This document shows positions 1-36,214 of a stretch of 64,000 nucleotides of DNA, in pieces. The notes under the pieces are model-generated. The model was given only the letters and a program-made list of their open reading frames with translations, had not been told where the DNA came from and searched no databases. Position 1 is the stretch's first letter, and each line of letters opens with the position of its first letter. Origin of the DNA: Methanocalculus natronophilus (GTDB lineage: Archaea; Halobacteriota; Methanomicrobia; Methanomicrobiales; Methanocorpusculaceae); the NCBI RefSeq assembly GCF_038751955.1, contig NZ_JBCEXH010000004.1, positions 1-64,000 on the forward strand. The letters are read 5' to 3'. Made by a program: the position numbers and the translations under genes.

Positions 1-459
1 TTGGGTTTTCAACTCTCAAGTGATCGTTGTTGGTTGGGTTAATCGAAAAGCTCTAGATTATAAAAATGACGACATATGTCAGTAGGCCCCCACCGCCCTC
101 TTCTCCGTCCGCACATGCTTCGCAGGAGAGGTTGAGCCAGGTGGCCGCAGATGCTGGCACGGAAGGGGCGGGAATGCTTCGGGGGCTGGCCAGAGCAGAT
201 AAACGCCCGATTCTTTCAGAATCGCCTTTCAGGTTGCTCTGATGAGCAAGGGTTTATCATCTCTGTCATCCTGTTCCCTTCGCTTGACCCCGCCCCCGAT
301 ATCCGCGCTGCAACTGCTTTTAGTCACTCCCAAATGTTCCCGGTTGTTGCATCGGGATCTCTTCCCCTGGATCATTTCCCACGTTCCGAAGAATTCAGGA
401 AAAACTTGGCGATCAGAACGCTGGAGAAGAGTCGGAATTGGGATGAGCTGCTCTCTCAC
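1..459. other. Gene-poor left edge
   Basis: I see no gene with family resemblance here. The first 60 bases are AT-rich. The stretch around 91-130 and the stretch 283-440 resemble decayed sequence found again downstream of aglB (about 23566-23757). The short reading frames crossing the region show no recognisable domain and I treat them as chance. Confidence 0.4.
283..440 (+). repeat. Diverged repeat, copy 1 (partner at 23566-23757)
   Basis: Blocks shared in the same order with 23566-23757 include CCGATAYCCGCG, GTTGCATYGGGATC and a GAATCAGGAAAA-like block followed by GGAGAAGAGTC. Overall identity looks moderate with small gaps, so both are probably relics of one older element or gene 5' region. 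In the second copy the shared block runs into the start of a Phd-like antitoxin remnant. I cannot say what the ancestral unit encoded. Confidence 0.4.
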
Positions 460-7475: not shown

Positions 7476-8744
7476 GTGAACATATCAATACTTGGAACCG
7501 GTTATGTCGGTGCAGTAACAGGCGCCTGCTTTGCAGAGCTTGGGAATGACGTTGTCTTTGTGGATATCGATCCTGCCAGAACAGACTGTATCCGTACCGG
7601 CAGGTCTCCTATCTTCGAACCTGGCCTTGATGATCTGCTCACAAAGAATCTGGATCGGATCTCTGCGACAACGAATACCAGAGACGCGATCCGGGATACC
7701 GATGTAACCTTCATCTGTGTCGGGACTCCTTCGAATCCGGATGGTTCAATCGATCTTGGGTATGTCGAGGCTGCCTGCCGGGATATCGGGCAGGTGCTCA
7801 GGGAGAAGGATGGATGGCATACGGTTGTAATGAAGAGCACTGTTGTGTCTGGAACAACAACGGGAATTGTTCGGTCAACACTTGAAGACGCATCCGGGAA
7901 GGTTGCCTTCCGCGATTTCGGGCTCGCAGCAAACCCTGAATTCTTACGGGAAGGATCAGCACTCACGGACGTCTTCTCGCCGGATAGGATTGTGATTGGT
8001 GCTGAAGACTCAACATCACGCGAGATCCTTGAGAGCCTGTATGGGTCTTTTGACTGCCCGAAGATCGCCTGTGCAATCCCGGTTGCCGAGATGATCAAGT
8101 ACGTGAGCAATGCGTTTCTAGCCACCAAGATCAGCTTTGCAAACGAGATCGGCAACCTCTGTAAATCAATGGGCATCGATACAGCCGAGGTCTTTGAAGG
8201 TGTTGGCCTCGATGCCAGGATTAACCCGGCTTTCTTCAGATCAGGCATCGGGTTTGGCGGCTCCTGCTTCCCAAAGGATGTCCGTGCACTAATTGCACAG
8301 GCCAGGTCTCAGGGTGTCCCTCCGCAGATCCTAACAAGTGTGGTTGCGGTAAACGAAAACCAGCCCCTCCGGCTTGTTATATTACTGAAGAAGCATATCC
8401 CGGATCTCCGGGGCAGGAGAATCGGTGTCCTCGGACTAGCCTTCAAGCCGGATACCGATGATATCCGGGAGAGCCGGGCGATCCCGATCATCGAAGAACT
8501 CCAGAAAGAGGGGGCGGGCGTTATCGCTTATGATCCCCTGGCAATGGAATCATTTGGGAGACTCTTCCCTGATATCTCATATGCAGATTCCGCAGAGGAT
8601 CTGGTTTCAACTGCAGATGCAGTCCTTCTCACAACAGAATGGAAGGAGTTTGACGCACTCGATTACACCGGGAAGCTGGTGATTGATGGTCGGCGGGTTC
8701 CGAAGGCAGCGGTTGGATCCATCTATGAGGGGGTCTGCTGGTAA
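7476..8744 (+). CDS. UDP-glucose 6-dehydrogenase
   Basis: 422 residues, full length. It oxidises UDP-glucose to UDP-glucuronate with 2 NAD+. Visible features are the N-terminal GTGYVG nucleotide motif, FICVGTPSNPDGS, the NPEFLREGSA block, and the catalytic cysteine C264 in GFGGSCFPKD. The C-terminal UDP-binding domain has GLAFKPDTDDIRESRAI. Start is GTG at 7476 after GGTGAT. It is comparable to AglM of haloarchaeal N-glycosylation. GalU (9653) supplies its substrate; a TA pair lies between them. Confidence 0.93.
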   Translation: MNISILGTGYVGAVTGACFAELGNDVVFVDIDPARTDCIRTGRSPIFEPGLDDLLTKNLDRISATTNTRDAIRDTDVTFICVGTPSNPDGSIDLGYVEAACRDIGQVLREKDGWHTVVMKSTVVSGTTTGIVRSTLEDASGKVAFRDFGLAANPEFLREGSALTDVFSPDRIVIGAEDSTSREILESLYGSFDCPKIACAIPVAEMIKYVSNAFLATKISFANEIGNLCKSMGIDTAEVFEGVGLDARINPAFFRSGIGFGGSCFPKDVRALIAQARSQGVPPQILTSVVAVNENQPLRLVILLKKHIPDLRGRRIGVLGLAFKPDTDDIRESRAIPIIEELQKEGAGVIAYDPLAMESFGRLFPDISYADSAEDLVSTADAVLLTTEWKEFDALDYTGKLVIDGRRVPKAAVGSIYEGVCW

Positions 8745-8845
8745 TGTGTGATCCGATCGTGTACTGTACCAGGCTCTGCATTGGAACGAGGGCAAAGCGT
8801 ATGGATGGGTGATTTATCCAAAGGATTATCTGTTTTCTCAGGAAT

Positions 8846-9046
8846 ATGAATAATATGGAGCCGGAGATTATGAAGGAGAAGAAATTCAATCCCGAAGATG
8901 TCATCGGGAAACCTTACAGGAGAGGGATGTTACCCTACGGTGGATCAGTGACAAGGGGTCGGATATCCTATGCTGTCAGTGAGGAAGAGTACCTGGAAGA
9001 TATGAGGCGTCTCCGATCAGTTTTGAACAAGCCATCTGATCGCTAA
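8846..9046 (+). CDS. Small putative antitoxin partner of the PIN protein
   Basis: 66 residues (alternative start ATG 8855 has the better-spaced AGGA site). Charged, with a C-terminal helix EEEYLEDMRRLRSVL. It lies 21 bases upstream of a PIN-domain gene in the same direction, the arrangement of VapBC-type operons. I do not recognise the family, so antitoxin function rests on position, size and charge. Confidence 0.55.
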   Translation: MNNMEPEIMKEKKFNPEDVIGKPYRRGMLPYGGSVTRGRISYAVSEEEYLEDMRRLRSVLNKPSDR

Positions 9047-9067
9047 CACACGATTCTGCAGGAATTC

Positions 9068-9613
9068 ATGAACAATCCAACCATTTTTCTGGATACACCA
9101 ATCTTTTTCACCTGTGCTGAAGATACGCGATCAAGAACCACTCTTCAGCATGCCAGAAATGCAGGCTATTTAATTCAGACGTCCATATCGGTTCTAGGTG
9201 AAGCCTTCATCCAGATGCATGAGCACAAAAAAGCGCTTGATTATATCACCAGTATGAATCAGTTCCTCAATGACTGGAATGTCGCAGTCCACTTTCCAAA
9301 TGATTCTGTCCGGATACTCTGTTATACTATGGGAGAAGAAGAAGTTGACACCCGGATGATCCGTGAGCCGACCGATCGCACTCACCTCGCCTATTCGATG
9401 GCATATCATTCAGACTATTTTCTGACGTCCGACCGAAACCTGATCAGATACCGGATTCCATCCTCTCTCGAAGCAATCGGGTTTTCAAAACCCGCCTGCC
9501 TGCCACTTGAAGAATTCAAAAATGAGATGCTTATGAAGGTGCGTGACGTCTCATATGAATGGGATACAACAAGATACTCAAACCACGGAGAAGACGATAA
9601 GAATGACGCGTAA
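9068..9613 (+). CDS. PIN-domain ribonuclease (VapC-like toxin)
   Basis: 181 residues. The N-terminal FLDTPIFF contributes the first PIN aspartate (D9), SVLGEAF an acidic residue near position 46, and TDRTHLAYSMAYHSDYFLTSDRNL the remaining metal-binding aspartates. PIN toxins cleave RNA with Mg/Mn. An unusual C-terminal extension of about 35 residues follows the domain. The start is set by AGGAATTC just before ATG 9068. It sits between nucleotide-sugar genes, an insertion-like position. Confidence 0.75.
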   Translation: MNNPTIFLDTPIFFTCAEDTRSRTTLQHARNAGYLIQTSISVLGEAFIQMHEHKKALDYITSMNQFLNDWNVAVHFPNDSVRILCYTMGEEEVDTRMIREPTDRTHLAYSMAYHSDYFLTSDRNLIRYRIPSSLEAIGFSKPACLPLEEFKNEMLMKVRDVSYEWDTTRYSNHGEDDKNDA

Positions 9614-9652
9614 CAGTACTCTATCAGTCCCTGCACCGGGGGTTGTCTGCCC

Positions 9653-10528
9653 ATGACCATCACAAAAGCCGTCATCCCGGCAGCCGGCCTCGGCACCCGG
9701 TTCCTGCCGGTCACCAAATCAATGCCGAAAGAGATGCTCCCGATCATTGATGTTCCCGTGATCCATTATGTTGTCCAGGAGGCGCTTGCCTCAGGAATTG
9801 ACGATATCATCATCATCACCGGCCGGAGCAAGCGGGCGATAGAGGATTATTTTGATGATGCGCCGGAACTGGAGATGCATCTTGCAAAGAACCCAAAGAA
9901 TGCCAGCGTGCTGTCGATGGTTCGTGATATTTCAAAGCTTGCTGATATCCACTATGTCCGGCAGAAGGAGCCGCTTGGGCTTGGTGATGCGGTACTCAGG
10001 GCTGAGAAGCATATCAGCGGCGAGCCGTTTGCCGTTCTCCTTGGTGATGATATCATCAAGAACGATACCCCCTGTACGCAGCAGCTGATCGATACCTACA
10101 CCCGGTACCGCTGCTCGGTGCTGGCGGTTGAAGAGGTCTCTGATGCGATGGTCTCAAGTTATGGGATCATCAGGGGAAAGCCGCTTGAGGATTCGCTCTC
10201 GCTTCTGGAGGATATCATCGAGAAGCCGTCCCTTGCAGACGCCCCATCCCGGACGGGTGCGATCGGGCGGTACGTCTTCACGCCCGAGATCTTTGACTGC
10301 CTCCATGCAACCCGCCAGGGTGTGGGTGGGGAGATCCAGCTGACTGATGCGATCCGGCTTTTGAATGCCCGCCAGAATATCTATGCCTATGAGTTCTCGG
10401 GCAGGCGGTATGATACCGGGGATCGGATGGGCTACCTGGAGGCAATTCTTGATGTTGCACTTGAGCAGGACGATCTGCGGGGCGATCTGGTGGCATATAT
10501 GAAGGGGATTGTGGAGAGGTCGGAGTGA
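9653..10528 (+). CDS. galU: UTP-glucose-1-phosphate uridylyltransferase
   Basis: 291 residues, full length for GalU. It makes UDP-glucose from UTP and glucose-1-phosphate. The nucleotidyltransferase signature AVIPAAGLGTRFLPVTKSMPKEMLP is followed by the LLGDDII metal site and IEKP, and the GRYVFTPEIFDCL and GEIQLTDAI blocks match the GalU/RmlA superfamily. It provides the substrate for the UDP-glucose dehydrogenase encoded about 0.9 kb upstream on the same strand. Confidence 0.93.
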   Translation: MTITKAVIPAAGLGTRFLPVTKSMPKEMLPIIDVPVIHYVVQEALASGIDDIIIITGRSKRAIEDYFDDAPELEMHLAKNPKNASVLSMVRDISKLADIHYVRQKEPLGLGDAVLRAEKHISGEPFAVLLGDDIIKNDTPCTQQLIDTYTRYRCSVLAVEEVSDAMVSSYGIIRGKPLEDSLSLLEDIIEKPSLADAPSRTGAIGRYVFTPEIFDCLHATRQGVGGEIQLTDAIRLLNARQNIYAYEFSGRRYDTGDRMGYLEAILDVALEQDDLRGDLVAYMKGIVERSE

Positions 10529-11570: not shown

Positions 11571-11603
11571 ATACCTATGTCTCTTCAGGTATACTTTAGT
11601 ATA
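11571..11603 (+). promoter_or_regulatory. Palindromic operator/promoter of TA pair 1
   Basis: ATACCT at 11571-11576 and AGGTAT at 11587-11592 form an inverted repeat with a 10-base spacer. It is followed at once by TATACTTTAGTATA, itself palindromic, which runs into the antitoxin ATG at 11603. The same arrangement is conserved at 23951-23983 before the paralogous pair although most flanking sequence differs. This suggests autoregulation by the antitoxin or complex and a very short or absent leader. Confidence 0.6.
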
Positions 11604-11839
11604 TGGCAGGAGAAGTAACCACCATCAAGATTACTCCAGGTGTGAAACAAAGACTTGATAGGTTGAGGCGATATCCCCGTGAGTCTTATAACGAGATAAT
11701 CTCACGGCTTACCACGGAAAAAGAAGAAGAGGGAATAACTGAAGAAGATATTTTGGATATTGAGGAAGCGCTTGAGGATATCAAGGCAGGCCGGGTCTAT
11801 TCGACTGCCCAGCTCAAACAGAAACTCGGTCTTGATTGA
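11603..11839 (+). CDS. Antitoxin of RelE-type pair 1
   Basis: 78 residues. The N-terminal TTIKITPGVKQRLDRL is a ribbon-helix-helix-like DNA-binding segment; the acidic helix EDILDIEEALEDIKAGRVYS and STAQLKQKLGL resemble toxin-wrapping tails of RelB/VapB-type antitoxins. The stop abuts the toxin ATG (11840) with no spacer. A close paralogue lies at 23983-24219, differing at only about ten positions. Confidence 0.8.
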   Translation: MAGEVTTIKITPGVKQRLDRLRRYPRESYNEIISRLTTEKEEEGITEEDILDIEEALEDIKAGRVYSTAQLKQKLGLD

Positions 11840-12100
11840 ATGGGATACACCATTATCTGGACTGATAAATCCAGGAAAAACCTTGAGAAATTACAAAAAG
11901 ATACCGCAGCCAGGATAATCGAGCGTGTCGACGCCATTGGTGACGATCCATTTCAGCACATTGACCGGTTGGCGGGTTCAGCCTGGTATACATATCGGGT
12001 GGGCAAATACCGGGTTATTCTTGATATAAAACGAAATACGTTGATAATATATGTAATCAAAGTCGGTCCAGGGAAAGTTGTCTACAGAAATCTGGAATAA
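11840..12100 (+). CDS. RelE-family toxin of pair 1
   Basis: 86 residues with the canonical RelE core: YTIIWTDKSRKNLEKL, helix AARIIERVDAI, DDPFQHIDRLAGS, then YRVGKYRVILDI and a final strand. RelE toxins act as ribosome-dependent mRNA endonucleases. Translation is probably coupled to the antitoxin gene, which ends directly before it. A paralogue sits at 24220-24480. Confidence 0.87.
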   Translation: MGYTIIWTDKSRKNLEKLQKDTAARIIERVDAIGDDPFQHIDRLAGSAWYTYRVGKYRVILDIKRNTLIIYVIKVGPGKVVYRNLE

Positions 12101-12221
12101 TGTGATTTGCCATTTGGAAGCCAAAGAGGGAATATAAAGAGAAGGCAACTCCGAGTCATCATAAATTCAATTCTATCTCCAAATCGTGTGATAACAATAT
12201 CGTTGACAGAAGATAACGACC

Positions 12222-20850: not shown

Positions 20851-23511
20851 ATGCTTAAGGGGTCAGATATTCAAATACAAAAGCGGACGGTACGATATCT
20901 TTTCATCGCCGTCTGTCTCGTCGCGTTTGCCCTCCTCACATTCTGGTTTCGGACACTCCCGGTCTCCCAGATTGCTACCGAGCACTGGGCCAGCCTCATT
21001 GCTGTTGGCTGTCCGGATGTCTGGTTCAGTCTCCGGCAGATTGAACAGATCGTGACACATTTTCCATCATACTCGTGGTTTGACCCGATGACTGGTTTCC
21101 CGGATGGTCGGGTAGTTCATTGGGGCCCACTTTATCCATTAATGGCTTCGGTACTCGTTCTCCTGATGGGAGCATCAACACGGCCTGAGATGATGTATGT
21201 TGCTTCGTTTCTCTCTCCCCTGATGGCGGTTGCAATGGTCCCGGTGATGTATGGGCTCGGCGCAAAGCTTGTGGACTGGAAGACGGGGCTTGTGTCTGCC
21301 GGGTTTATCTCGATTGTTGCCGGGCAGTATGCGTATCGTTCGCTCTACTCGTTTATCGATCATCATATCACCGAGACGCTCTTCTCGGCACTCTTCTGTT
21401 TGTGTTTTATCATCGCGATGATGAAGCTGAAGGAGAGCGGGGTGCGCCTTACAGATCTGGAGAGCCTGAAAAATCCGGTACTGATCTATCCTGCGCTTGC
21501 GGGCTTTGCGTTTCTCCTTGGCATGTACAACATGGGGACAATGCTTGTCTTCCTCCTTCTTGTTGCCGTCTATACCCTTATCCAGATGATCGTGGATCAT
21601 ATCAGAAAGCAAGAGACGGATTATCTTGTCGTGACAAATGCGGTCACATTTTTCGTTGTGATAATCGGTCTTATCCCCTTTGGGCTGGTTCACACCGGGT
21701 TTGGGCTGGGCCGCTATAACGTTGGCAATCTTCTGCTCGCCTTATTTGTTATTATTGGATCCCTCCTTCTCTATGCTATCTCTCGGTATCTGGCAGATCG
21801 CCCCTGGTACTATTACCCTGCGTCCCTTGCGGGTTTGTGTGTGATCTCATGGATTGTTGGTAATCTTGCCCTTCCTACAGTATTTGGTGCCTGGTATGGG
21901 CGGTTTAGCAGTGTTGTCGGGATGGGTGCAACGACGCTGACTGTCCAGGAGGCGATGCCCTGGCAGTTTGCAAACGCGGTATCGGTATTTAACTGGGGCT
22001 GGATCCTCGTTGCCGGGGGGGTTTTGTATCTCCTGTACCTGATATGGAAGAGAAACGATGCACCTGCCCTCTTCACGCTCGTCTGGTTTGCGCTCATCCT
22101 CTTCATGACCATGCGGCAGGTCCGGTTTGAATACTACCTGGCCGCAAATATTGCCCTGATGGCGGCGATATGTGTTGGTGCTGTCATGCAGATCGGCGGC
22201 CGGGATCTGCTCCGGCTCACTGGCATTGCGAAATTCCTCAAGCCTAAGGATGACGCCGTGCCTCCGGAGGATCTTCCTGATATCCCGGAAAAGCCCGGAA
22301 AGAAGGGACAAAAACAGAAAAAGGATCAGCAGAAAAGAAAGGAGCGGAAAAAAGCCCCGGCAGAACCGCCTGCAAGCCCGCTCCGATCAGGCCTGCTCGT
22401 TGTGACAGTACTCATCGCCCTTCTCTTTGTACATTCCGGAGCCTCGGCGAATTATACGATCGGCACTAATGTCAGGGAGGGTATTAATTCAGACTGGCTG
22501 GTTGCACTCACATGGCTTGGAGAGAATTCGCCGGATCCTGGTGTGGACTATTATGAGATCTATGATTCACCACAAGCACGCGATGTCTTTGAGTATCCGC
22601 CAGAAGCATATGGGGTTCTCTCCTGGTGGGATTATGGCCACTGGATAACGTTTGTCTCAAAGAGAATACCGGTTGCAAATCCGTTCCAGCAAAATGCACG
22701 AACGTCTGCTCATTTCTTCATGGAGACAGATGTCGATGCTGCATCAGCAATGCTTGATGATCTTGGCGTCAGGTATATTATCACCGACATTGAGATGACA
22801 ACCGGCAAGTTCTGGGCAATGGCAACCTGGCACGATCCGGTGAATGCGACTGGCCACTTCCAGAAGCGGGTTCTCTACGAGGAGTCTGCGGGCTCATATT
22901 CACAGGTACAGCTCCAGCGCGAGAGTTATTTCCAGACGATGATCCAGCGGCTCCATGCGTTTGATGGATCTGCAGTAGTTCCAGAACAGATACTGGTTGT
23001 TCAGTCCGCGCCAGCAAATGAGCTTGGCATTGCCGATACCTCAACACCTGTGATCATTGGTGTTGGTGAGACAGAATCGGTTGATGAGGCGCGGGCATAT
23101 ATTGCTGAATTTGAGAAGACGGCACCTGCCGGCCAGACAGCCGAGATCCTCTCCCCCGAGATGTTTGTCTCTTCTACTGAGCTGGACGCACTCCCAAATA
23201 TCCGGCTTGTATATGAATCGCCGACAAATGTTCTCAGGGACGGCGGCGACATCAGGTACGTGAAGGTCTTTGAAGTTGTGCCTGGTGCTGTTCTCGAGGG
23301 TGAAGGGATGATTGAGGTGCCAGTTGAGACGAATACCGGCCGCACATTCACCTATCGGCAGGAGAGCCGGGATGGGGTATTTGTACTGCCGTATCCAACC
23401 GAGGCAGGGCCTGATGATGTGGTTGTGGCAACAGGACCGTACCGGATTGTTGAGACCGGGCAGGAGGTATCTGTTCCATACCAGGCGGTGATTGAGGGAT
23501 TGAGGATCTAA
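20851..23511 (+). CDS. aglB: Dolichyl-phosphooligosaccharide-protein glycotransferase (STT3 family)
   Basis: 886 residues. It transfers lipid-linked glycan to Asn in NxS/T sequons on the outer face of the membrane. The N-terminal half has many membrane helices. PDVWFSLRQIEQ with D56 matches the first catalytic acidic motif, and FIDHHITET the second. The signature WWDYG is at residues 592-596, just after the last helix, followed by a soluble C-terminal domain. A Lys/Glu-rich cytoplasmic-type loop (about residues 475-505) is notable. ATG 20851 lies about 28 bases from a T/A-rich box, suggesting a leaderless mRNA. Confidence 0.95.
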   Translation: MLKGSDIQIQKRTVRYLFIAVCLVAFALLTFWFRTLPVSQIATEHWASLIAVGCPDVWFSLRQIEQIVTHFPSYSWFDPMTGFPDGRVVHWGPLYPLMASVLVLLMGASTRPEMMYVASFLSPLMAVAMVPVMYGLGAKLVDWKTGLVSAGFISIVAGQYAYRSLYSFIDHHITETLFSALFCLCFIIAMMKLKESGVRLTDLESLKNPVLIYPALAGFAFLLGMYNMGTMLVFLLLVAVYTLIQMIVDHIRKQETDYLVVTNAVTFFVVIIGLIPFGLVHTGFGLGRYNVGNLLLALFVIIGSLLLYAISRYLADRPWYYYPASLAGLCVISWIVGNLALPTVFGAWYGRFSSVVGMGATTLTVQEAMPWQFANAVSVFNWGWILVAGGVLYLLYLIWKRNDAPALFTLVWFALILFMTMRQVRFEYYLAANIALMAAICVGAVMQIGGRDLLRLTGIAKFLKPKDDAVPPEDLPDIPEKPGKKGQKQKKDQQKRKERKKAPAEPPASPLRSGLLVVTVLIALLFVHSGASANYTIGTNVREGINSDWLVALTWLGENSPDPGVDYYEIYDSPQARDVFEYPPEAYGVLSWWDYGHWITFVSKRIPVANPFQQNARTSAHFFMETDVDAASAMLDDLGVRYIITDIEMTTGKFWAMATWHDPVNATGHFQKRVLYEESAGSYSQVQLQRESYFQTMIQRLHAFDGSAVVPEQILVVQSAPANELGIADTSTPVIIGVGETESVDEARAYIAEFEKTAPAGQTAEILSPEMFVSSTELDALPNIRLVYESPTNVLRDGGDIRYVKVFEVVPGAVLEGEGMIEVPVETNTGRTFTYRQESRDGVFVLPYPTEAGPDDVVVATGPYRIVETGQEVSVPYQAVIEGLRI

Positions 23512-26101: not shown

Positions 26102-27925
26102 GTGTCGACCATCAGAAACGCCAGCTCCATTCTCTACTATCTCTTTGGCCCCTTCAAGAAGCTGCTTGCTCTGTATCTTCTTGCGGTGATAGTACTTGCG
26201 GGGCTGGAAGTTTTCCGGGTGTCGCTTGTCTATCCGATCATTAATTTCGGGCTTGATGTTGATAACCAGCACCGGCTGCTTGACACATTTTTTGATCTGA
26301 TCCTCCCTGCATCAGTGCATCCGTTCCTCGCCTCGGCACTGCTGCTCCTTCTGACAACTGGTGTGATTGCCGGCTTTTATGCTGTGGTTGCATATGCCGG
26401 AGCATATGTCTTTGCAACAGTCCGTGATTCACTCGATCGGCGTATCTTTGCCCGCCTGATTGGAAATGATTACAGCTACTTTGCAGCAAAAAAGCAGGGG
26501 GATCTGCTGTATATCGGGCAGGGGGCAGTGACAGAAGGTGGACAGGCTATTAAAAGCTTCATGGAATGTATCAAGAACTCACTGATGGCCCTCCTCTACC
26601 TGCTGTTTATCTTGTATCTCTCGTTCTGGCTGACGGTAGCACTTCTCATCCTGGGTGCAGTGTATGCCATCCTTATCAGGCAGCAGCTCTTCACCCGTGT
26701 ATACAGAAACAGCTCGATTTTAAATGCAGCACTTATGGAGAAGTCGGTTGCCTACCAGGAGTTCATCTCAGGTATCAAGACGATCTTCATCACCGGCTCC
26801 CATTCCTTCTGGGCTGATAGGTATGATGCTGCGGTCCGCAAGCTCAAGAAGGCATATACCTTTGTTCAGGCACTCGGTAAACTCCCCTCCATCATCAATG
26901 ACTTTCTCATGTTCTCGATCATCGCGCTTGGTGCGGTTGTGCTGTATGTGTCGACAGGCGGGGATTTCCTCTCGTACATCGGACTTTTCGGGACATTCAT
27001 GCTTGCATTGTACCGTCTTGTTCCTGCAGCAACCCAGGCGCAGACCAATCTGACGTCAATGGTACAGTATCTCCCGGCGCTTGAACTCATCTATGCAGAA
27101 CTGAGCCGTGAGGACGGTGAGCGGGAGAAGCGGGCGAAAGAGGGGCAGGGCAAGCCGTTTGCATTCAGAGACTCAATCCGGTTTCAGAATGTTTATTTCC
27201 GCTATCCTGCTGCAACACGGGATACGATTCGTGATGTCTCCTTTGAGATACAAAAGAAGTCAACAGTTGCAATTGTCGGGGATTCCGGATCTGGGAAGAC
27301 GACGATTGCCAATCTCCTTGCCCTTCTGTATACGCCGGATAGGGGGGTGATCGCAGTCGATGGAACAGATGTACATGAATATGATCCCAGAGAGTACCTG
27401 CGAGCTCTTGGCTACATCGGCCAGGAGACGTTTATCTATCACGATACAATCGGAGAGAATATCCGGTTTGGGCTCCACTGCACCGATGAAGAGATTATCG
27501 CTGCCGCACAACGTGCGGATGCCCATTCATTCATCATGGCAACCGATCATGGCTATGATACCATCATTGGCGATCAGGGCATGAAGCTCTCAGGCGGCCA
27601 GCGGCAGCGGGTTGCGATCGCACGAATTATTCTTCGGAACCCGGAGATCCTGCTCCTGGATGAGGCAACAAGTTCGCTTGACAATATCTCTGAGAAGCGG
27701 ATTGTTGATGCAATCCAGCAGCTCTCAAAGAATATGACGGTGATCACAATTGCCCACCGGCTCTCAACAATTCAGAATGCGGATGTGATCTATGTGTTAA
27801 GTGAGGGGAGGATAGTGGAGAGCGGGAGCCATGAAGAGCTGCTGGGGCGGAGAGGAGAGTACTATCGGTTGTATCTTGGGCAGGAGAGGGAAGAGAAGAA
27901 CGAGAAGAACGAGCTATCTTCCTGA
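26102..27925 (+). CDS. ABC transporter, fused permease-ATPase (PglK/MsbA-type lipid-linked glycan flippase)
   Basis: 607 residues. An N-terminal six-helix membrane domain (about 1-330) is followed by an ATPase: Walker A GDSGSGKTT, Q-loop YIGQETF, signature LSGGQRQRVAIAR, Walker B EILLLDEATSSLD and H-loop IAHRLST. Half-transporters of this type dimerise and flip lipid-linked oligosaccharides (PglK) or lipids (MsbA). Placement between aglB and sugar-nucleotide genes favours a role in exporting the glycan-lipid used by AglB. Start GTG 26102 after GAGGATCA. Confidence 0.9.
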   Translation: MSTIRNASSILYYLFGPFKKLLALYLLAVIVLAGLEVFRVSLVYPIINFGLDVDNQHRLLDTFFDLILPASVHPFLASALLLLLTTGVIAGFYAVVAYAGAYVFATVRDSLDRRIFARLIGNDYSYFAAKKQGDLLYIGQGAVTEGGQAIKSFMECIKNSLMALLYLLFILYLSFWLTVALLILGAVYAILIRQQLFTRVYRNSSILNAALMEKSVAYQEFISGIKTIFITGSHSFWADRYDAAVRKLKKAYTFVQALGKLPSIINDFLMFSIIALGAVVLYVSTGGDFLSYIGLFGTFMLALYRLVPAATQAQTNLTSMVQYLPALELIYAELSREDGEREKRAKEGQGKPFAFRDSIRFQNVYFRYPAATRDTIRDVSFEIQKKSTVAIVGDSGSGKTTIANLLALLYTPDRGVIAVDGTDVHEYDPREYLRALGYIGQETFIYHDTIGENIRFGLHCTDEEIIAAAQRADAHSFIMATDHGYDTIIGDQGMKLSGGQRQRVAIARIILRNPEILLLDEATSSLDNISEKRIVDAIQQLSKNMTVITIAHRLSTIQNADVIYVLSEGRIVESGSHEELLGRRGEYYRLYLGQEREEKNEKNELSS

Positions 27926-28050: not shown

Positions 28051-29310
28051 ATGGTTTTAACAGAACATCCGGATCCCACAGTCTGCGTCGTCGGCCTCGG
28101 GTATGTCGGCTACCCGCTCGCATGTGCATTTGCTGAAAAGATCCAGACGATCGGCTATGACGTCGATGCGAAGAAGATCGCCGCGATCAACGCTACCCCC
28201 GGCAACCTAATCGAGGCGACGACTGATCCAACGCCGATAGGAACTGCAGATATTGTCATCGTTGCTGTCCCGACACCGGTCACAAAGGCCAAGGATCCTG
28301 ATATCTCGTATATCGTCTCTGCCGGGGAGACGGTGGGGAAGCAGATGAAAGCAGGTGCGATCGTTGTTCTTGAATCAACCGTCTACCCCGGCCTCACCGA
28401 GGAGGTCTTCGTCCCGGCGCTTGAGCGTGCATCAGGCCTTGTCTGCGGCCGCGACTTCTTCGTCGGCTACTCGCCTGAGCGGATCAACCCGGGCGACGAC
28501 GACCATACCCTCGAGAAGATCACAAAAGTCGTCGCCGGCATGGACGAGGCAACCGCGGCCCGGCTCGCCGCCCTGTATGGAATGATCACAACTGTCCATC
28601 TTGCGCCTGACATCCGGACAGCTGAGGCGGCAAAAGTGATCGAGAATGTCCAGCGGGACTTAAATATCGCTCTGATGAACGAGCTTGCGATCATCTTCGG
28701 CAGGATGGGTATCGACACCCGGGCAGTCCTTGAGGCGGCTGCCACCAAGTGGAACTTCCACCGCTACCGGCCGGGCCTCGTCGGCGGCCACTGCATCCCG
28801 GTTGACCCTTACTATCTGGTGATGAAGGCAGAAGAGCTCGGCTACCACCCGCAGGTGATCCTGGCCGGCCGGGCGATCAACGACGCGATGCCCCGGCATG
28901 TTGCCCAGCTGGCGATCAAGGAGCTGAACCGGGCAGGCAGGGTGATCAAAGGCTCCCGCCTCCTCATCATGGGCCTTACCTACAAGGAGAATGTCCCTGA
29001 CACTCGTGAGAGCCCGGTGGAGGAGATGATCCGGGAGTTAAAAGAGTTTGAGATCGAGGTCTATGGGTACGACCCCCTCCTCAGGGCAGAGGATATCGAG
29101 TATTTTGGGGCGCGACCTGTGACATCGCTTGGAGAGATTGGTGGCCCGGTTGACTGCATTGTGATCAATGCCCCACACGCGTCTTTCTCAGAACTGACGC
29201 TGGAGACGGTCTGCGGGATCTGCAATGGCAAACCGATCGTTGTTGATGTGACCGGTATGTTGCGGAATGATATAAAGGTCAGGGAAGAATGTGTTTACAG
29301 AACTTTGTAG
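28051..29310 (+). CDS. UDP-N-acetyl-hexosamine 6-dehydrogenase (WecC/WbpA/TviB family)
   Basis: About 419 residues from ATG 28051 (GTG 28036 possible). [20 protein letters not shown] is the NAD motif, followed by [21 protein letters not shown] and the catalytic cysteine in [14 protein letters not shown], then [16 protein letters not shown] in the C-terminal domain. [10 protein letters not shown] distinguishes the UDP-GlcNAc/ManNAc group from the UDP-glucose dehydrogenase at 7476. It forms UDP-HexNAc-uronic acids for the glycan. Its end runs into a fragment of an unrelated ABC transporter gene. Confidence 0.9.
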
Positions 29311-29720
29311 CTCCGGATGACCAGATTATCGCCGCTGCAGAGCGTGCCAACATCCACACCTTCATCGCCGCCCTCCCGGATGGCTATGACGCAATCGTCG
29401 GCGACCAGGGGCTGAAGCTCTCCGGCGGCGAGAAGCAGCGGATCGCGATCGCCCGCGCCCTCGTCCGCGAGCCCGAGATCTTGGTGCTGGACGAGGCGAC
29501 GAGCAACCTGGACAACGAGTCAGAGGCGATCGTCCAGGCATCCATCAACCAGATATCAGAGACGATCACCACCTTTATCATCGCCCACCGGCTCTCGACG
29601 ATCCGAAGGGCAGATACGATCTATGTGATGAGCAAGGGGAGGATCGTTGAGAGCGGGGGACATGAGGAGTTGCTGGAGAGGAAGGGGAAGTACTGGGAGT
29701 TGTATGAAAGTGGGGTGTGA
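29311..29720 (+). pseudogene. C-terminal fragment of a second flippase-type ABC transporter
   Basis: The frame entering from 29289 reads [53 protein letters not shown] and [12 protein letters not shown]: the last ~135 residues of an ATP-binding domain with signature, Walker B and H-loop but no Walker A, Q-loop or membrane domain. It closely parallels, but is not identical to, the end of the intact gene at 26102-27925 and is more GC-rich. It joins the dehydrogenase gene without a spacer, indicating a deletion or recombination junction at about 29310. Confidence 0.85.
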
Positions 29721-29762
29721 ATGAGATGATGATATTCATTATTGTGATTGAAGGAGATCTGA

Positions 29763-32180
29763 ATGATTTCTATTGATTCACAGAAAAAAATCAAATTCGG
29801 CTCGAAAGCCGAGACGCTTGCACAAATCAATAATTTATCATTATCATGTACGATACCGCCCTTCACATTCTTCTCTCGAAAAGACTGGAGAATTCAGTCA
29901 GCTTCTCTGCTGGAAAAGATATCAAAATCATTCCAACCTTATCTTGTTGCAGTACGCAGCTCGGCAGCCTGTGAAGACGGAATCGGTCTGTCAAATGCCG
30001 GGGCATTTGAATCTATCCTCAATATTAATCCAGACAATACAAAAGAACTTCGTGAAGCGATTGAAAAGGTATTCGCCTCTTATCCTGAACAGGATGAAGC
30101 AGATCAGGTTCTTGTTCAACAGATGGTTACAGGGATTGCCGTCAGTGGTGTCATCCTAACCCGCTTCGTTGATGATGGATCTCCCTATTATGTGCTCAAC
30201 TATGATGACGAGACCGGCCGAACCGATTCCATCACAGGCGGTACCGGCGTTCACAAGACGGTGATGGTGTACCGGAAATATAAGGAAGAATATTTCGATT
30301 CTCCCCGTGTCCGAAAGATGCTTGCTTTAGCTCAGGAAATTGAAGAGATCTGCGGGTGGGTCCCCCTTGATATTGAGTTTGCTATTGATCATGATGGCTC
30401 CGTGTATCTATTACAGGTTCGGAGGATCAGCACCGTTGGAGGCTGGCATCCGGATACAGAACACCGGGTATCTCGTGTAATCCCTCAGGTAGAACGTTTT
30501 ATTGAGCACCTCTCTGCACGAAGAAAAGGTCTTTTCGGGGCATCGTCAATATTTGGCAATATGCCGGATTGGAATCCGGCAGAACTGATCGGTCCAATCC
30601 CTTCTCCCCTCGCCGCATCACTCTTCCGAAAACTGATCTCTTCGAATGCCTGGAGTGTTGCACGGGCGCAGATTGGCTACCATAAGATACCCCGTACAGA
30701 GTTGATGGTGCTCATCGGCGGACGGGCATATATTGATGTCCGGGCCAGTTTCAACTCATTTCTCCCAAAAGGGATCCCTGAAGAGATTGGAGAGAAGCTG
30801 ATCAATGCATGGCTTGCCAGACTCTCGGCCAACCCAAGTCTCCATGATAAAGTCGAGTTTGAGGTCGCCCACACAGTGCTGGACTTCACATTTGATACCG
30901 TATTTGCTGAGCGATATGGTGACGTTCTAACTCCTGAGGAGACTTGTATCTTCAAAGCCTGCCTACAGGAATTTACGAACAATGCTCTTGATATGACCGC
31001 TGCTGGCAGCCTGCCAAAGGCACTCTCCAGAATTGATAGCCTGGCAGAGGAACAGAGCAATGGTGCCCTTGAAATCAAGACAGAGAGCCCTGTTGCTCTG
31101 GCAGCGTTTATTGCCGATCTTCTGGAAGACTGTATTCAGTATGGCACCATTCCGTTTACCATTATTGCCCGGCACGGGTTCATAGCTGAGACGCTGCTTC
31201 GCTCTGCCATACAACGTGGCGCGATCACCAGGGAAAGGGTCGCTGAGTTCAAATCATCATTCAATACTATTATGGGTGAACTTGCACGTGATACGCAGGC
31301 GGTTTGTGAAGGCCGCCTCGATGAAGCTGTATTTCACGAGCGCTACGGTCACCTGCGTCCCGGTACTTTTGATATTATGTCACCCTGCTATCGGGATCGA
31401 CCCGATCTCTTTGACAACTGCAACATAGCAGATAGAGCCGATCATCAGGGTCCATTCACTTTAACAGATGAGGAAGAGCAGGCAATCAATACTCTTTTGC
31501 AAAAGGCGGGCGTTGGCTCCATAGACGCAGAAGGACTCTTTGCATATGCTCAGGCAGCAATTTGCGGGAGGGAGTATGGGAAGTTTGTCTTCTCCCGCAA
31601 CCTTTCAGCAGCGCTTGAGGCGATTGCATCATGGGGTGAGTTCTATACCCTCGGGAGAGAGGATCTTTCTTATCTCACAATTGATGATATCATCGACAGC
31701 TGCTACACCTCAACGCGGGATGAAATGACATCTGTCCTGATGCAGAAAGTAGATCAGGCACGCATCGGACAATCTTTTGCCAAACTGTTGAAACTCAGCT
31801 ATCTGATTCGTGGTGTCCGGGACATTCATGTCGTACCTATCCACCGCTCTGAGCCGAACTTCATTACACAGAAGAAGATCGAGAGGCCTTGCAAGTTCCT
31901 TGATGCAACAACGCTCAATTCAGGCTCATTGAAAGATTATATCATCTGTATCGACAATGCGGACCCCGGTTTTGACTGGATCTTTTCAAAGGGTATTGCA
32001 GGATTAATTACTAAATATGGGGGGGCAAACTCTCATATGGCGATCCGTTGTGCCGAACTGCAGCTGCCTGCTGCCATCGGCTGTGGTGAGGATCTCTTTG
32101 AAAGGTTACGGAACTGCCGGAAGATTGTACTGAATTGTGAATCAAGGGTAATCAGACCTCTGGGGTATTATGAGGGGTAG
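29763..32180 (+). CDS. L-glutamine kinase-like enzyme (Cj1418 type, PEP-synthase fold)
   Basis: 805 residues. An N-terminal ATP-grasp/PEP-synthase-type domain contains VAVRSSAACEDG, VLVQQMV and DIEFAIDHDGSVYLLQVRR. A central region has NMPDWNPAELIG, typical of this subfamily. The C-terminal swivelling phosphohistidine domain has GGANSHMAIRCAELQLPAAIG with the catalytic His at residue 758. The Campylobacter jejuni homologue Cj1418 uses ATP to phosphorylate the side-chain amide nitrogen of glutamine. No pyruvate-binding barrel is present, so it is not PEP synthase. The stop overlaps the next gene by 11 bases; the three following genes are the cognate pathway partners. Confidence 0.83.
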   Translation: MISIDSQKKIKFGSKAETLAQINNLSLSCTIPPFTFFSRKDWRIQSASLLEKISKSFQPYLVAVRSSAACEDGIGLSNAGAFESILNINPDNTKELREAIEKVFASYPEQDEADQVLVQQMVTGIAVSGVILTRFVDDGSPYYVLNYDDETGRTDSITGGTGVHKTVMVYRKYKEEYFDSPRVRKMLALAQEIEEICGWVPLDIEFAIDHDGSVYLLQVRRISTVGGWHPDTEHRVSRVIPQVERFIEHLSARRKGLFGASSIFGNMPDWNPAELIGPIPSPLAASLFRKLISSNAWSVARAQIGYHKIPRTELMVLIGGRAYIDVRASFNSFLPKGIPEEIGEKLINAWLARLSANPSLHDKVEFEVAHTVLDFTFDTVFAERYGDVLTPEETCIFKACLQEFTNNALDMTAAGSLPKALSRIDSLAEEQSNGALEIKTESPVALAAFIADLLEDCIQYGTIPFTIIARHGFIAETLLRSAIQRGAITRERVAEFKSSFNTIMGELARDTQAVCEGRLDEAVFHERYGHLRPGTFDIMSPCYRDRPDLFDNCNIADRADHQGPFTLTDEEEQAINTLLQKAGVGSIDAEGLFAYAQAAICGREYGKFVFSRNLSAALEAIASWGEFYTLGREDLSYLTIDDIIDSCYTSTRDEMTSVLMQKVDQARIGQSFAKLLKLSYLIRGVRDIHVVPIHRSEPNFITQKKIERPCKFLDATTLNSGSLKDYIICIDNADPGFDWIFSKGIAGLITKYGGANSHMAIRCAELQLPAAIGCGEDLFERLRNCRKIVLNCESRVIRPLGYYEG

Positions 32181-32817
32181 TACGGATCTCCGTCTGGGTC
32201 TATCCATGCGGGTTGTGGAAGCGACCGGATATGTTGAGCCTCGTGATGCCCTGGCACAGGACTGGTCGGTCTTTTTAAAGCGTGTACTTCCGGACGCCCA
32301 CTGGATTCCTGTACCCAATATTGGGAAGGATGTTAGTGAATTAATTGAGTACTGGGGTTTGAATGGTTTCATCCTGACAGGTGGGAACAATATCCATGAT
32401 GCTCCAATACGTGATGAAACCGAATTGACTATGCTGGAGTATGCAACCCGGAATACATTGCCGGTCCTTGGGGTCTGCCGGGGGATGCAGATGATCTGCC
32501 ATTACTATAATCAGAGTCCTCTCCCCTGCCAGAATCCTCACAACCATGTTGCAACAATCCACAGGGTACATTTGACAGACAATTTTCTGCAATGGGATGA
32601 AGATGAATTGACGGTCAACTCATTCCATGAGCAGTGTGTGGGTACAGGCGATCATTTTAGAGGAGAGTTAAAGTCATTTGCCATTGCCGATGATGGACTT
32701 GTTGAGGGGGTCATAAATGCCGAAAAGACGTTGCTTGGTATCATGTGGCATCCCGAGAGAGAGAATCCGGCGTCAGACTTTGACGAATATCTAATTAGAA
32801 CTTTCTTTTCGAGATAA
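32170..32817 (+). CDS. Gamma-glutamyl-CDP-amidate hydrolase-like class I amidotransferase (Cj1417 type)
   Basis: 215 residues. Class I glutaminase fold with the nucleophile C103 in LGVCRGMQM and the H194/E196 pair in MWHPERE. The substrate-side FILTGGNNIHD matches the gamma-glutamyl hydrolase/GATase group. In C. jejuni Cj1417 removes glutamate from L-gamma-glutamyl-CDP-amidate, releasing cytidine diphosphoramidate. No synthase domain is attached. The start ATG lies inside the end of the glutamine-kinase gene, so translation is coupled. Confidence 0.82.
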   Translation: MRGSTDLRLGLSMRVVEATGYVEPRDALAQDWSVFLKRVLPDAHWIPVPNIGKDVSELIEYWGLNGFILTGGNNIHDAPIRDETELTMLEYATRNTLPVLGVCRGMQMICHYYNQSPLPCQNPHNHVATIHRVHLTDNFLQWDEDELTVNSFHEQCVGTGDHFRGELKSFAIADDGLVEGVINAEKTLLGIMWHPERENPASDFDEYLIRTFFSR

Positions 32818-32828
32818 GAGGAATAAAA

Positions 32829-33569
32829 ATGCGTGGAATCATACTTGCAGCAGGACGCGGTTCACGACTGGACCGAAGAACCGATGACAGGCCGAAATGC
32901 CTGGTGGAGCTATCCGGACATCCGCTATTAGAGTGGCAACTGGGAGCGATGCATAATGCAGGCATCGATGATATTCTTGTTGTCAGAGGATATCGCGGTG
33001 AGATGATAAAAGGAGCATTTGAGGTGCGTGATAACCCCGACTGGCCGCAGACACACATGGTAGCAAGCCTGATGTGTGCCCATGAATGGCTTGCTGAGGA
33101 TGAGTGTATTATATCATACTCTGATATCGTGTATGGTGCAGATGCCATTACTCAGTTGAGTAATGCGGATGGATCACTTGCCATCCTCTATGATACACGG
33201 TGGCGCGAACTCTGGCAGGAGCGGTTTGATGATCCGCTCTCTGATGCAGAGAGTTTCTCTGTTGATGAGAATGGAAATATTCTGGATATTGGGCGGAAAG
33301 GAGTTTCATTTGATGATATCCATGGACAATACATGGGTTTGTTGAAGTTCACTCCTGAATCATACCGGTGGATTGCTACACTGCTTGATAATCAGGTCGA
33401 GTTGAAGAACAAACTGGATATGACGTCTCTACTATCACGCCTTATTCAGGACGGACATTCTATTCAGGGAGTACCCTGGGATGGGGTATGGTGCGAGGTT
33501 GATGATGGATCTGATCTTGAAGTTGCTGAAGGAAAGGTTCGGGCAGGAGAGCTTGTTTTTCCCAAATAG
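32829..33569 (+). CDS. CTP:phosphoglutamine cytidylyltransferase-like enzyme (Cj1416 type)
   Basis: 246 residues, single GT-A-like nucleotidyltransferase domain: GIILAAGRGSRLDRRTDDRPKCL, the LSGHPLLEWQL acceptor strand, YSDIVYG as metal-binding DxV/D region and WCEVDDGSDLEVAE near the C-terminus, resembling phosphocholine cytidylyltransferase-type proteins. In the Campylobacter pathway Cj1416 joins CMP from CTP to the phosphoryl group of glutamine phosphate. Eleven bases separate it from the preceding gene. Confidence 0.82.
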   Translation: MRGIILAAGRGSRLDRRTDDRPKCLVELSGHPLLEWQLGAMHNAGIDDILVVRGYRGEMIKGAFEVRDNPDWPQTHMVASLMCAHEWLAEDECIISYSDIVYGADAITQLSNADGSLAILYDTRWRELWQERFDDPLSDAESFSVDENGNILDIGRKGVSFDDIHGQYMGLLKFTPESYRWIATLLDNQVELKNKLDMTSLLSRLIQDGHSIQGVPWDGVWCEVDDGSDLEVAEGKVRAGELVFPK

Positions 33570-33598
33570 TTCAAAACGATTTGTTGAGGTTCTCTGAT

Positions 33599-34117
33599 AT
33601 GATCATATGGCTGGTAGGGTTGTCCGGGTCAGGGAAGACAACCATTGGAAGAGAGATGTATAAGCTCTGGAAGCCTCATGCTCCAAATACCGTCATGGTT
33701 GATGGGGACGATGTCCGGAGGATACTTGGCTGTGATACCGAGCCCCGTGACTATACAATGGAGGGGCGAAGAAATCTGGCCATGCAATATGCTGAGATCT
33801 GTTTATGGCTGGATGAACAGGATATTAATGTGATCTGCTGTACCATCAGTAACTTTGAAGATATCTATATCAATAATCGGGAGCGGTTTTCTAAGTACTA
33901 TCAGGTCTTTATTGATGCACCAATTGAACTTCTGAAAAAGAGAGATCCGAAGGGTCTTTACAGCCGGGCAGCAGCGGGTACAGAAACAAATGTTGTTGGG
34001 ATCGATCTTCCCTTCACCCCTCCAAAAACTTCTGATTATACAATTTGTAATGATGAAACAGCACCCAGCCCTGAAGACATCGCTTATGGTATTTTAAAAG
34101 CAGCGGGGATTGTATGA
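33599..34117 (+). CDS. Cytidine diphosphoramidate 3'-kinase-like enzyme (Cj1415 type, APS-kinase fold)
   Basis: 172 residues from ATG 33599, preceded by TTGAGGT (the frame extends six codons further up without conservation). MIIWLVGLSGSGKTT has the P-loop with K13; VDGDDVRRILGCD matches the APS-kinase DGDxVR motif; GLYSRAAAG fits the substrate loop. True APS kinases phosphorylate the 3'-OH of adenylyl sulfate. The C. jejuni Cj1415 enzyme of this subfamily phosphorylates the 3'-OH of cytidine diphosphoramidate. No sulfurylase or PAPS gene is nearby, favouring the latter. Overlaps the next gene by 4 bases. Confidence 0.8.
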   Translation: MIIWLVGLSGSGKTTIGREMYKLWKPHAPNTVMVDGDDVRRILGCDTEPRDYTMEGRRNLAMQYAEICLWLDEQDINVICCTISNFEDIYINNRERFSKYYQVFIDAPIELLKKRDPKGLYSRAAAGTETNVVGIDLPFTPPKTSDYTICNDETAPSPEDIAYGILKAAGIV

Positions 34118-34986
34118 AAAATCGGCTGGATCGCTGGATATTTGGTAAAGAACAGGAGATCCTTGCTCTTGAAACAGATGGACCTCCTCCAAAATACGCC
34201 GATCTCCACCTCCACACCACCGCCTCCGACGGCACCCTCACCCCCCGTGAGCTAGTTATCGCGGCAAAAGATGCAGGGCTCTCCACCATTGCTATCACCG
34301 ATCATGATACGATCGATGGCATCGAAGAGGCATGCCGAGCTGGCCGCGAGTTTGATCTGGAGGTGATCCCTGGAATCGAACTCTCTACAATAGACGGCAA
34401 AAAGGAGATTCATATCCTGGGTTATTTCATTGATCCCACGAATTGCAGTTTAAATGCCATCATCCAAAAGATGATTGATGCCCGGGAGAATCGGGCTGTT
34501 CGTATGGTGGAGAAACTCAATGAGCTTGGGATCGAGATTACCGTTGAAAGGGTGCGTGAGATTTCAGGAACAACATTTATCGGCAGACCGCATATTGCGC
34601 GGGTAATGCAGGAGATGGGCTATATTGAAGAGCAGTCTGAAGCATTCACAACAGAGTACATCGGCAGCGGCGGAAGGGCATATATTGAGCGGTTTAAGAT
34701 AACGCCCGCGGATGCCATCTCACTGATTCATGAGGCTGGCGGTGTGGCTGTTCTTGCGCATCCAGGTTATCTTGGTGATCGGAGTACGCTTGGTGAAGAA
34801 GATATTGCGCGGTATGTCGGGTTAGGGTTGGATGGGGTGGAGGTGTATTATGCAAAGCATACAGAAGAGCAGGTTGAGTATTATAAGGGATTGGCACTTA
34901 CGTATGGGTTGATGATGACCGGAGGATCGGATTTTCATGGGGGTAAGGATTTATTATCATTTTTTATCATCAAGTCGGTAGTGTGA
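34114..34986 (+). CDS. PHP-family metal phosphoesterase (TrpH/YciV-like)
   Basis: 290 residues. PHP motifs in order: YADLHLHTTASDGT (H32, H34, D39), ITDHDTIDG, IPGIELST, HILGY, FIGRPHIARVM, VLAHPGY and GGSDFHGG. Members such as YciV/TrpH hydrolyse nucleoside 3',5'-bisphosphates to 5'-mononucleotides. The ATGA overlap with the CDPA-kinase-like gene ties it to the phosphoramidate operon, where the expected by-product of transfer from a 3'-phospho-CDP donor is cytidine 3',5'-bisphosphate. The last ~15 residues after SDFHGG are atypical, so the C-terminus may be altered. Confidence 0.8.
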   Translation: MKNRLDRWIFGKEQEILALETDGPPPKYADLHLHTTASDGTLTPRELVIAAKDAGLSTIAITDHDTIDGIEEACRAGREFDLEVIPGIELSTIDGKKEIHILGYFIDPTNCSLNAIIQKMIDARENRAVRMVEKLNELGIEITVERVREISGTTFIGRPHIARVMQEMGYIEEQSEAFTTEYIGSGGRAYIERFKITPADAISLIHEAGGVAVLAHPGYLGDRSTLGEEDIARYVGLGLDGVEVYYAKHTEEQVEYYKGLALTYGLMMTGGSDFHGGKDLLSFFIIKSVV

Positions 34987-35017
34987 GTAGTTCATATAAA
35001 AAATGAATGGTGCGTTA

Positions 35018-36214
35018 ATGAGTATTAATTATAATGATTTATTTCATCACCTTGAAAACCTGAAAATTGTTGTTCTTGGTATAGATTATACACGACCCGG
35101 ATCTGATTTTTTCCAGAGCTTAACTGATGGTCATCCGGAAATTATTCAGACAACTGGAACCTGCCTTTATAGATATCATGGGTTTTGGGGTTCTGCTGTA
35201 TCAAAAGATAATGTACAGGATCTAGTTGAAGAATTTATATATTTCCCATATCATATGCCCCTTTTTGATTCAAGATTCAGAGTTACAGAGAGATGGAATA
35301 AACTTGGTGTTAATAAAAATGAACATTTTGAAGTAGATATTCCGTTATTCCGCCAACATGCACTGGGTTTTATGGAAGGAAAAGAAGTAAACTTCCGTAA
35401 TTTCTTTTTAGCGGTTCATGGTGCATATGCTTTAACCTTGGGTCAGAATATTAAAAATGCGAAGATTATTTTTTATCATATTCATCATATTAAAAACTGG
35501 GAAAGATATATGCCTGATTTCCCAAATTTTAAAATTATAATAATGACAAGGGATCTCAGAGATGGATTAGTTTCATATATTGAACATAGAAAACCTGGAT
35601 CAGCTAGTTACTGTCGACCAGACTCTCATATTGCCCCATTGAGCACATATTCATCGATTTTTTATTATGTTAAGAAATATGATGATGTCATCTTCCTTTC
35701 TCTCAGGGATCTTCATCATGAGCCATCTAAGATACTTAGCTGCTTTTGTAAAGATGTAAATATACAATTTTTACCAGAAATATTATTGGAATCAAGTTAT
35801 CATGGAAAATTGTGGTGGGGAGATATTATGTCCCCTAAATTTATTAATGGTTTTAATCCGGAATTTGGGAAAATCAATAGATGGAAAGGTAAATTAAGTC
35901 AAATTGATAATCTTATAATCGAATTTTTATATCATAATCAATTCATGGCATTTAATCATCCTCGAAAGCATGGAAACTTATTATATTACGTAATGTACCT
36001 ATTGGCACCAATAGTTATTTTTAAGCCAATGAGGTACGAAATGAAATTTTTCTTTTATCAAGTTAGACGGAGAGATATGTCTCCTACCAGAAAAATTAAA
36101 TTTTGCCTATTTGCATTATTAAATTATTTAGTTAGGATTAAAATATACTTGGTAGTATATTTTAGAAAAATCACTCTCCAAAAAATCAAAATTACAAAGT
36201 ATGGTGATTGTTAG
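35018..36214 (+). CDS. Sulfotransferase-fold protein, candidate phosphoramidate transferase
   Basis: About 398 residues from ATG 35018 (GGTG upstream; ATG 35003 lacks a site). The sulfotransferase 5'-phosphate loop appears as DYTRPGSDFFQSLTDGHPEI and the 3'-phosphate-binding region as TRDLRDGLVSYIEH (R178, S186); LSLRDLHHEPSKILSCF matches the later yEDL..P block. The first loop lacks the usual SGT, having PGSDFF. Strongly AT-rich compared with the upstream operon, so it was probably acquired separately. With no PAPS synthesis gene in view but a 3'-phospho-CDP-amidate route directly upstream, transfer of phosphoramidate to a sugar hydroxyl is my inference. Confidence 0.6.
   Translation: MSINYNDLFHHLENLKIVVLGIDYTRPGSDFFQSLTDGHPEIIQTTGTCLYRYHGFWGSAVSKDNVQDLVEEFIYFPYHMPLFDSRFRVTERWNKLGVNKNEHFEVDIPLFRQHALGFMEGKEVNFRNFFLAVHGAYALTLGQNIKNAKIIFYHIHHIKNWERYMPDFPNFKIIIMTRDLRDGLVSYIEHRKPGSASYCRPDSHIAPLSTYSSIFYYVKKYDDVIFLSLRDLHHEPSKILSCFCKDVNIQFLPEILLESSYHGKLWWGDIMSPKFINGFNPEFGKINRWKGKLSQIDNLIIEFLYHNQFMAFNHPRKHGNLLYYVMYLLAPIVIFKPMRYEMKFFFYQVRRRDMSPTRKIKFCLFALLNYLVRIKIYLVVYFRKITLQKIKITKYGDC

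Follow-up and report, generated by a model that had tools for sequence, protein, structure and literature searches.

A PHP phosphatase gene joined to a glutamine-kinase cassette in an archaeal surface-glycan locus: a candidate for pCp recycling after phosphoramidate transfer

Introduction

Cells clear PAP after sulfation, and CysQ removes the 3'-phosphate of the spent carrier. The phosphoramidate pathway of Campylobacter jejuni has had its enzymes assigned step by step. A review names 3'-phospho-5'-cytidine diphosphoramidate as an intermediate of this biosynthesis (PMC6429109). In the literature examined, we found no description of phosphoramidate transfer from 3'-phospho-CDPA or of by-product clearance. 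RNase AM, which acts on 5'-phosphorylated RNA, coordinates its metals through His13, Asp20, His45, Glu72, His83, His198, Asp255 and His257, and its 5'-phosphate pocket consists of Arg107, Arg110 and Arg141, with a stacking Phe161 contacting the base; Arg201 forms a salt bridge to an active-site sulfate in its structure, and the 5'-phosphate is buried in the structures of both CV1693 and RNase AM (PMC9410882).

Here we analyse a window of 64,000 nucleotides from Methanocalculus natronophilus that places the phosphoramidate pathway in an archaeal surface-glycan locus and offers one candidate each for transfer (a sulfotransferase-fold protein) and for clean-up (a PHP phosphatase). An earlier note on this DNA had proposed the PHP protein as a dedicated recycler of pCp (cytidine 3',5'-bisphosphate) in an operon mirroring sulfation.

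Results

The cassette and the PHP gene

The genes in question form one run on the forward strand, with the PHP gene at its downstream end:

29763-32180, + strand: glutamine kinase-like protein (PPDK_N plus PEP-utilizers), 805 aa; NF004508 at 879 bits, cut-off 501
32170-32817, + strand: class I glutamine amidotransferase, probable gamma-glutamyl-CDP-amidate hydrolase; NF045546 at 103 bits, below the cut-off of 250
32829-33569, + strand: nucleotidyltransferase, probable CTP:phosphoglutamine cytidylyltransferase; conserved beside GlnK
33599-34117, + strand: APS-kinase-like protein, probable CDP-amidate (CDPA) 3'-kinase, 172 aa from the ATG; NF004041 at 157.5 bits, cut-off 127
34114-34117, + strand: ATGA overlap of 4 bases between kinase stop (TGA, 34115-34117) and PHP start (ATG, 34114-34116)
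34114-34986, + strand: PHP phosphoesterase of the TrpH/CV1693/RNase AM group, C-terminally short, 290 aa

Glutamine kinase, hydrolase, cytidylyltransferase and CDPA kinase thus stand in a single operon; this gene set is kept at many loci, and the CDPA-kinase-like family recurs in most of the 80 glutamine-kinase loci surveyed. Around the cassette is a surface-glycan locus, whose AglB-like gene (20851-23511) was identified by eye. Directly preceding it is an ABC-transporter ATPase-domain fragment (29289-29720), which nearly duplicates, in truncated form, the end of the gene type found at 26102-27925.

The PHP reading frame (34114-34986, + strand) runs from an ATG to a TGA, and its product scored 49.5 bits against Pfam PHP (cut-off 26.4). 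Its top NCBIfam match was NF041577 (3',5'-nucleoside bisphosphate phosphatase) at 193.7 bits, about half of the equivalog cut-off of 400; the score against NF047791 (RNase RNM), 182.6 bits, also lay below its cut-off of 375. Relatives in the PDB were 3e0f/3o0f, 9etk, 2yb1 (CV1693) and 7ug9, which is described as a 5'-3' exoribonuclease. All nine metal ligands, including the H-x-H motif, are kept (H32, H34, D39, H64, E89, H100, H216, D273, H275), and R124, R127, R158 and F178 align with Arg107, Arg110, Arg141 and Phe161 of RNase AM. These 13 metal and pocket residues were invariant across a 20-row homologue alignment. Going by the motif AHPG[R/Y], Tyr219 takes the position of RNase AM Arg201, and nearby homologues likewise have no Arg there. 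The complete PHP motifs and the 4-base overlap with the CDPA-kinase-like gene that had been described earlier were thus both confirmed. The residue pattern supports a TrpH-group PHP protein with a predicted intact nucleotide-5'-phosphate pocket. Such a pocket would suit a nucleotide with a free 5'-phosphate; since RNase AM belongs to this group and has 5'-phosphorylated RNA as its substrate, a preference for pCp over pAp or 5'-phosphorylated RNA is not readable from sequence.

A missing or replaced C-terminus

What the earlier note overlooked is that the protein is short at its C-terminus. Every full-length homologue examined carries 20-40 further residues after GGSDFHG, while the window protein ends after about 14 unrelated residues and that of the sister genome G007 after 8:

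34938-34986, + strand: PHP gene, replaced 3' end; no homology to G007 or the family past about 34943

In both genomes the segment following the last D-x-H ligand is missing or replaced past about residue 277, and the two tails are unrelated to each other; no frameshift or premature stop precedes codon 277. A structure model of the window protein from the single sequence was of low confidence and uninformative. Activity seems possible because the metal ligands precede the break, but it is not assured, given that the C-terminal end is absent from both genomes.

Linkage within the genus

Glutamine kinase above its cut-off and a PHP gene at E<=1e-20 were each found in two of 100 relatives, the same two in both cases (G000 and G007), and within the phylum sample a close kinase homologue was likewise confined to these genomes. 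The PHP gene belongs to a cassette block shared between the window and G007:

29756-34943, + strand: block common to the window and G007; starts shortly upstream of GlnK and reaches the end of PHP

Identity between the two was 95.8% for GlnK, 98.5% for the amidotransferase, 100% for both the nucleotidyltransferase and the CDPA kinase, and 99.8% for PHP (DNA, over 830 bp). To the left of the block the ABC-transporter gene is about 76% identical, and to its right the flanks are unrelated: a sulfotransferase-like gene of 31% GC follows PHP in the window, and a Glyphos_transf-family gene follows it in G007. With cassettes this similar in both carriers, the linkage probably reflects one acquisition event rather than two. 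The operon position claimed for the gene is thus supported, and in this lineage it occurs only with the cassette, as part of one conserved block.

The CDPA-kinase gene of G007 is split between the end of contig C18 and the start of C24 with a 4-bp repeat, ACAA (window equivalent 33986-33989), and one of the contig ends at the split aligns with window positions 3-54 (92%), a pattern that suggests a mobile element inserted into the kinase gene.

Glutamine-kinase loci outside the genus

Outside the genus, we surveyed the best 80 of 289 glutamine-kinase loci (35-59% identity, about 36 with full 10-kb flanks). None of the 80 had a PHP gene within the fetched flanks, and none was annotated at six plasmid glutamine-kinase loci. 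A PHP homologue was present elsewhere in 46 of 78 glutamine-kinase genomes, never inside the sampled neighbourhoods. It follows that PHP is not a regular component of the glutamine kinase/CDPA pathway; general co-occurrence with glutamine-kinase operons is not supported, and a conserved pairing across bacteria has to be rejected. At L036, which has the nearest glutamine-kinase relative (59%), the locus stops short of the kinase, and the PHP gene of that genome lies on a separate contig with no cassette genes alongside. The label "dedicated" fits within this genus, on what was probably a single acquisition, but not beyond it.

At one locus from Chlorobiaceae (L089), a CysQ-like gene lies between the amidotransferase and cytidylyltransferase genes of the glutamine-kinase operon with overlapping ends; it scored 212 bits against TIGR01331, below the cut-off of 228.8, and no further glutamine-kinase locus was found in Chlorobi-class genomes. 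In Planctomycetota (L082), a CysQ that passes its cut-off is found 6.4 kb upstream of glutamine kinase. The viral collections searched gave no matches. As a separate observation, many glutamine-kinase loci have two further genes beside the CDPA kinase, one for a family with no Pfam match (YPYA..GD...NTYFYT) and one for a formyltransferase-like protein, for example at L082:15149-15751 and L082:15751-16461.

PHP genes in archaeal sulfation loci

PHP genes of other archaeal families are common and mostly unlinked. Among 40 archaeal PHP neighbourhoods fetched, most of them 20 kb long, two (L216 and L217) had Sat and APS kinase genes no more than about 1.9 kb from PHP, with the TrpH PHP gene within about 120 bp of one or the other:

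L216: PHP 9456-10325, APS kinase 8806-9438, Sat 7665-8816
L217: PHP 9492-10352, Sat from 10447, APS kinase 11595-12212

Sulfotransferase-like genes (judged by eye) lie near PHP in both loci, and L216:6671-10325 and L217:7294-14201 are probable sulfation modules with PHP in place of CysQ. These loci tie the PHP group to 3'-phosphonucleotide donors independently of the cassette. A sister relationship between the window gene and the sulfation-linked genes was tested and rejected, as the tree places the window PHP on the bacterial side, away from those of L216 and L217, at a position it does not fix exactly. The pairings with phosphoramidate and with sulfation genes therefore most likely arose separately.

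The downstream gene and the host background

Directly after PHP lies the candidate for the transfer step:

35003-36214, + strand: diverged sulfotransferase-fold protein, candidate phosphoramidate transferase, 403 aa; 31% GC

No Pfam family, and hence no sulfotransferase domain, was matched above cut-off by this protein; its homologue L041:743-2101 matches PF13469 (Sulfotransfer_3) at 42.7 bits (cut-off 27). In a Foldseek search, its AlphaFold model (mean pLDDT 68.1, pTM 0.67) matched sulfotransferases with an E-value of 6e-5, and all 14 structural matches at E<=0.001 were sulfotransferases (TM-score to target 0.40-0.58). Judged by the model, the protein is thus predicted to have a sulfotransferase fold. 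Loose, iterated profiles detected sulfotransferase-like ORFs in 18 and Glyphos_transf-like ORFs in 13 of the 80 glutamine-kinase loci. Searches of the host genome found no Sat-type ATP sulfurylase, no CysD (its PAPS_reduct-family proteins are not CysD) and no CysQ, the only PF00459 protein being the archaeal FBPase/IMPase. Seven DHH matches were present, which could include another pNp phosphatase. With neither Sat nor CysD, this genome is unlikely to supply a PAPS-using sulfotransferase with its donor, making 3'-phospho-CDPA the favoured donor for the 35003-36214 protein.

Discussion

We lean, with slightly more confidence than doubt, towards reading the window PHP as a pCp-recycling TrpH-group phosphatase that entered the genus together with a bacterial-type glutamine-kinase cassette. 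By homology, the kinase would produce N-phosphoglutamine, which the cytidylyltransferase and then the amidotransferase would convert to CDP-amidate, and the APS-kinase homologue would add a 3'-phosphate. The sulfotransferase-fold protein (in G007, the Glyphos_transf-family protein at the corresponding place) may then move phosphoramidate onto the surface glycan of the AglB locus. On chemical grounds, transfer from 3'-phospho-CDPA should leave pCp, which PHP might grip by its 5'-phosphate (R124, R127, R158) and base (F178) while the 3'-phosphate is removed at the metal centre to give CMP. This archaeon would need the PHP step because it has neither CysQ nor a native TrpH-type enzyme; other lineages would rely on an unlinked TrpH enzyme or on CysQ.

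Speaking for pCp recycling are the best match to NF041577, the kept residues, the linkage in two of 100 relatives and the conserved block, the lack of Sat, CysD and CysQ in the host, the adjacent sulfotransferase-fold gene, the CysQ-like gene of L089 and the PHP genes of L216 and L217. Against it stand the 0/80 loci, the probable single event, the absent C-terminus, the score below cut-off, the RNA substrate of RNase AM and the DHH candidates. Of the original interpretation, operon position, pocket, genus-only linkage and the CysQ and sulfation parallels have stood, but not general co-occurrence. The reading is thus partly supported. What it describes is recruitment on a local scale, not a module kept across lineages, and the shortened C-terminus casts genuine doubt on it.

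That doubt is the starting point for regarding PHP as a damaged passenger at the edge of a transferred block, its 3' end lost in a swap of the downstream transferase genes and its product inactive or weak. The missing C-terminus in the two genomes, where codon 277 is followed by unrelated tails, fits such damage, as does a downstream gene that differs between the genomes and is AT-rich in the window. Yet every catalytic and pocket residue is retained in a reading frame unbroken before codon 277, and the 99.8% DNA identity over 830 bp also speaks against damage, though recent exchange alone could explain it; we consider this account unlikely, while giving it some weight. It is rather improbable that PHP is a general TrpH enzyme (a pAp/pNp phosphatase and 5'-3' exonuclease on short RNA, in the manner of RNase AM) that has no particular connection with phosphoramidate chemistry and an accidental place in the operon. 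The nearly equal score of NF047791 (182.6 bits), the homologues in 46 of 78 glutamine-kinase genomes outside the sampled kinase neighbourhoods and the mostly unlinked, common genes of other archaeal families would be expected of such an enzyme, whereas absence from 98 of 100 relatives and presence only with the cassette would not. Moreover, PHP overlaps the kinase gene and is therefore probably co-translated, and the CysQ and Sat/APS-kinase precedents point the same way.

The same overlap could also suggest that PHP dephosphorylates the donor 3'-phospho-CDPA, which bears a 3'-phosphate too, and so brakes the kinase instead of acting on spent pCp. However, the buried 5'-phosphate in the CV1693 and RNase AM structures (PMC9410882) disfavours a larger 5'-diphosphoramidate, and such a reaction would make a futile cycle, so that we hold this very improbable.

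Returning to pCp recycling, the wider parallel drawn with sulfation gains from the adjacent sulfotransferase-fold gene, the CysQ-like gene in the L089 operon and the TrpH PHP in two PAPS/sulfotransferase loci, but loses from PHP not being general. A self-contained archaeal phosphoramidate-transfer module may be envisaged in which the CDPA kinase corresponds to APS kinase, a sulfotransferase-fold enzyme uses 3'-phospho-CDPA in place of PAPS and PHP corresponds to CysQ, with unrelated clean-up families recruited per lineage (PHP here, CysQ in Chlorobiaceae); we put this forward tentatively, with somewhat more doubt than conviction.

Comparison with known systems

The window PHP shares with CV1693-type phosphatases (PDB 2YB1; NF041577) the fold family, metal ligands, 5'-phosphate arginines and base-stacking Phe, and differs in its lack of the C-terminal segment, its score of about half the cut-off and its position beside phosphoramidate cassette genes. 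E. coli RNase AM (YciV/TrpH; NF047791 RNase RNM) has the same metal-site and 5'-phosphate-site residues, but the window protein has Tyr219 for Arg201 and is not a housekeeping enzyme in this archaeal order. As in the O-methyl phosphoramidate pathway of Campylobacter jejuni, the four activation enzymes (glutamine kinase, cytidylyltransferase, hydrolase and CDPA kinase) are encoded in one operon; in the window, genes for a PHP phosphatase and a sulfotransferase-fold protein come in addition, and the setting is an archaeal AglB locus. With CysQ of sulfation and PAPS metabolism, finally, PHP would share its proposed job, the removal of the 3'-phosphate from a spent carrier, while belonging to an unrelated family (CysQ being PF00459) and acting on pCp as its proposed substrate rather than on PAP.
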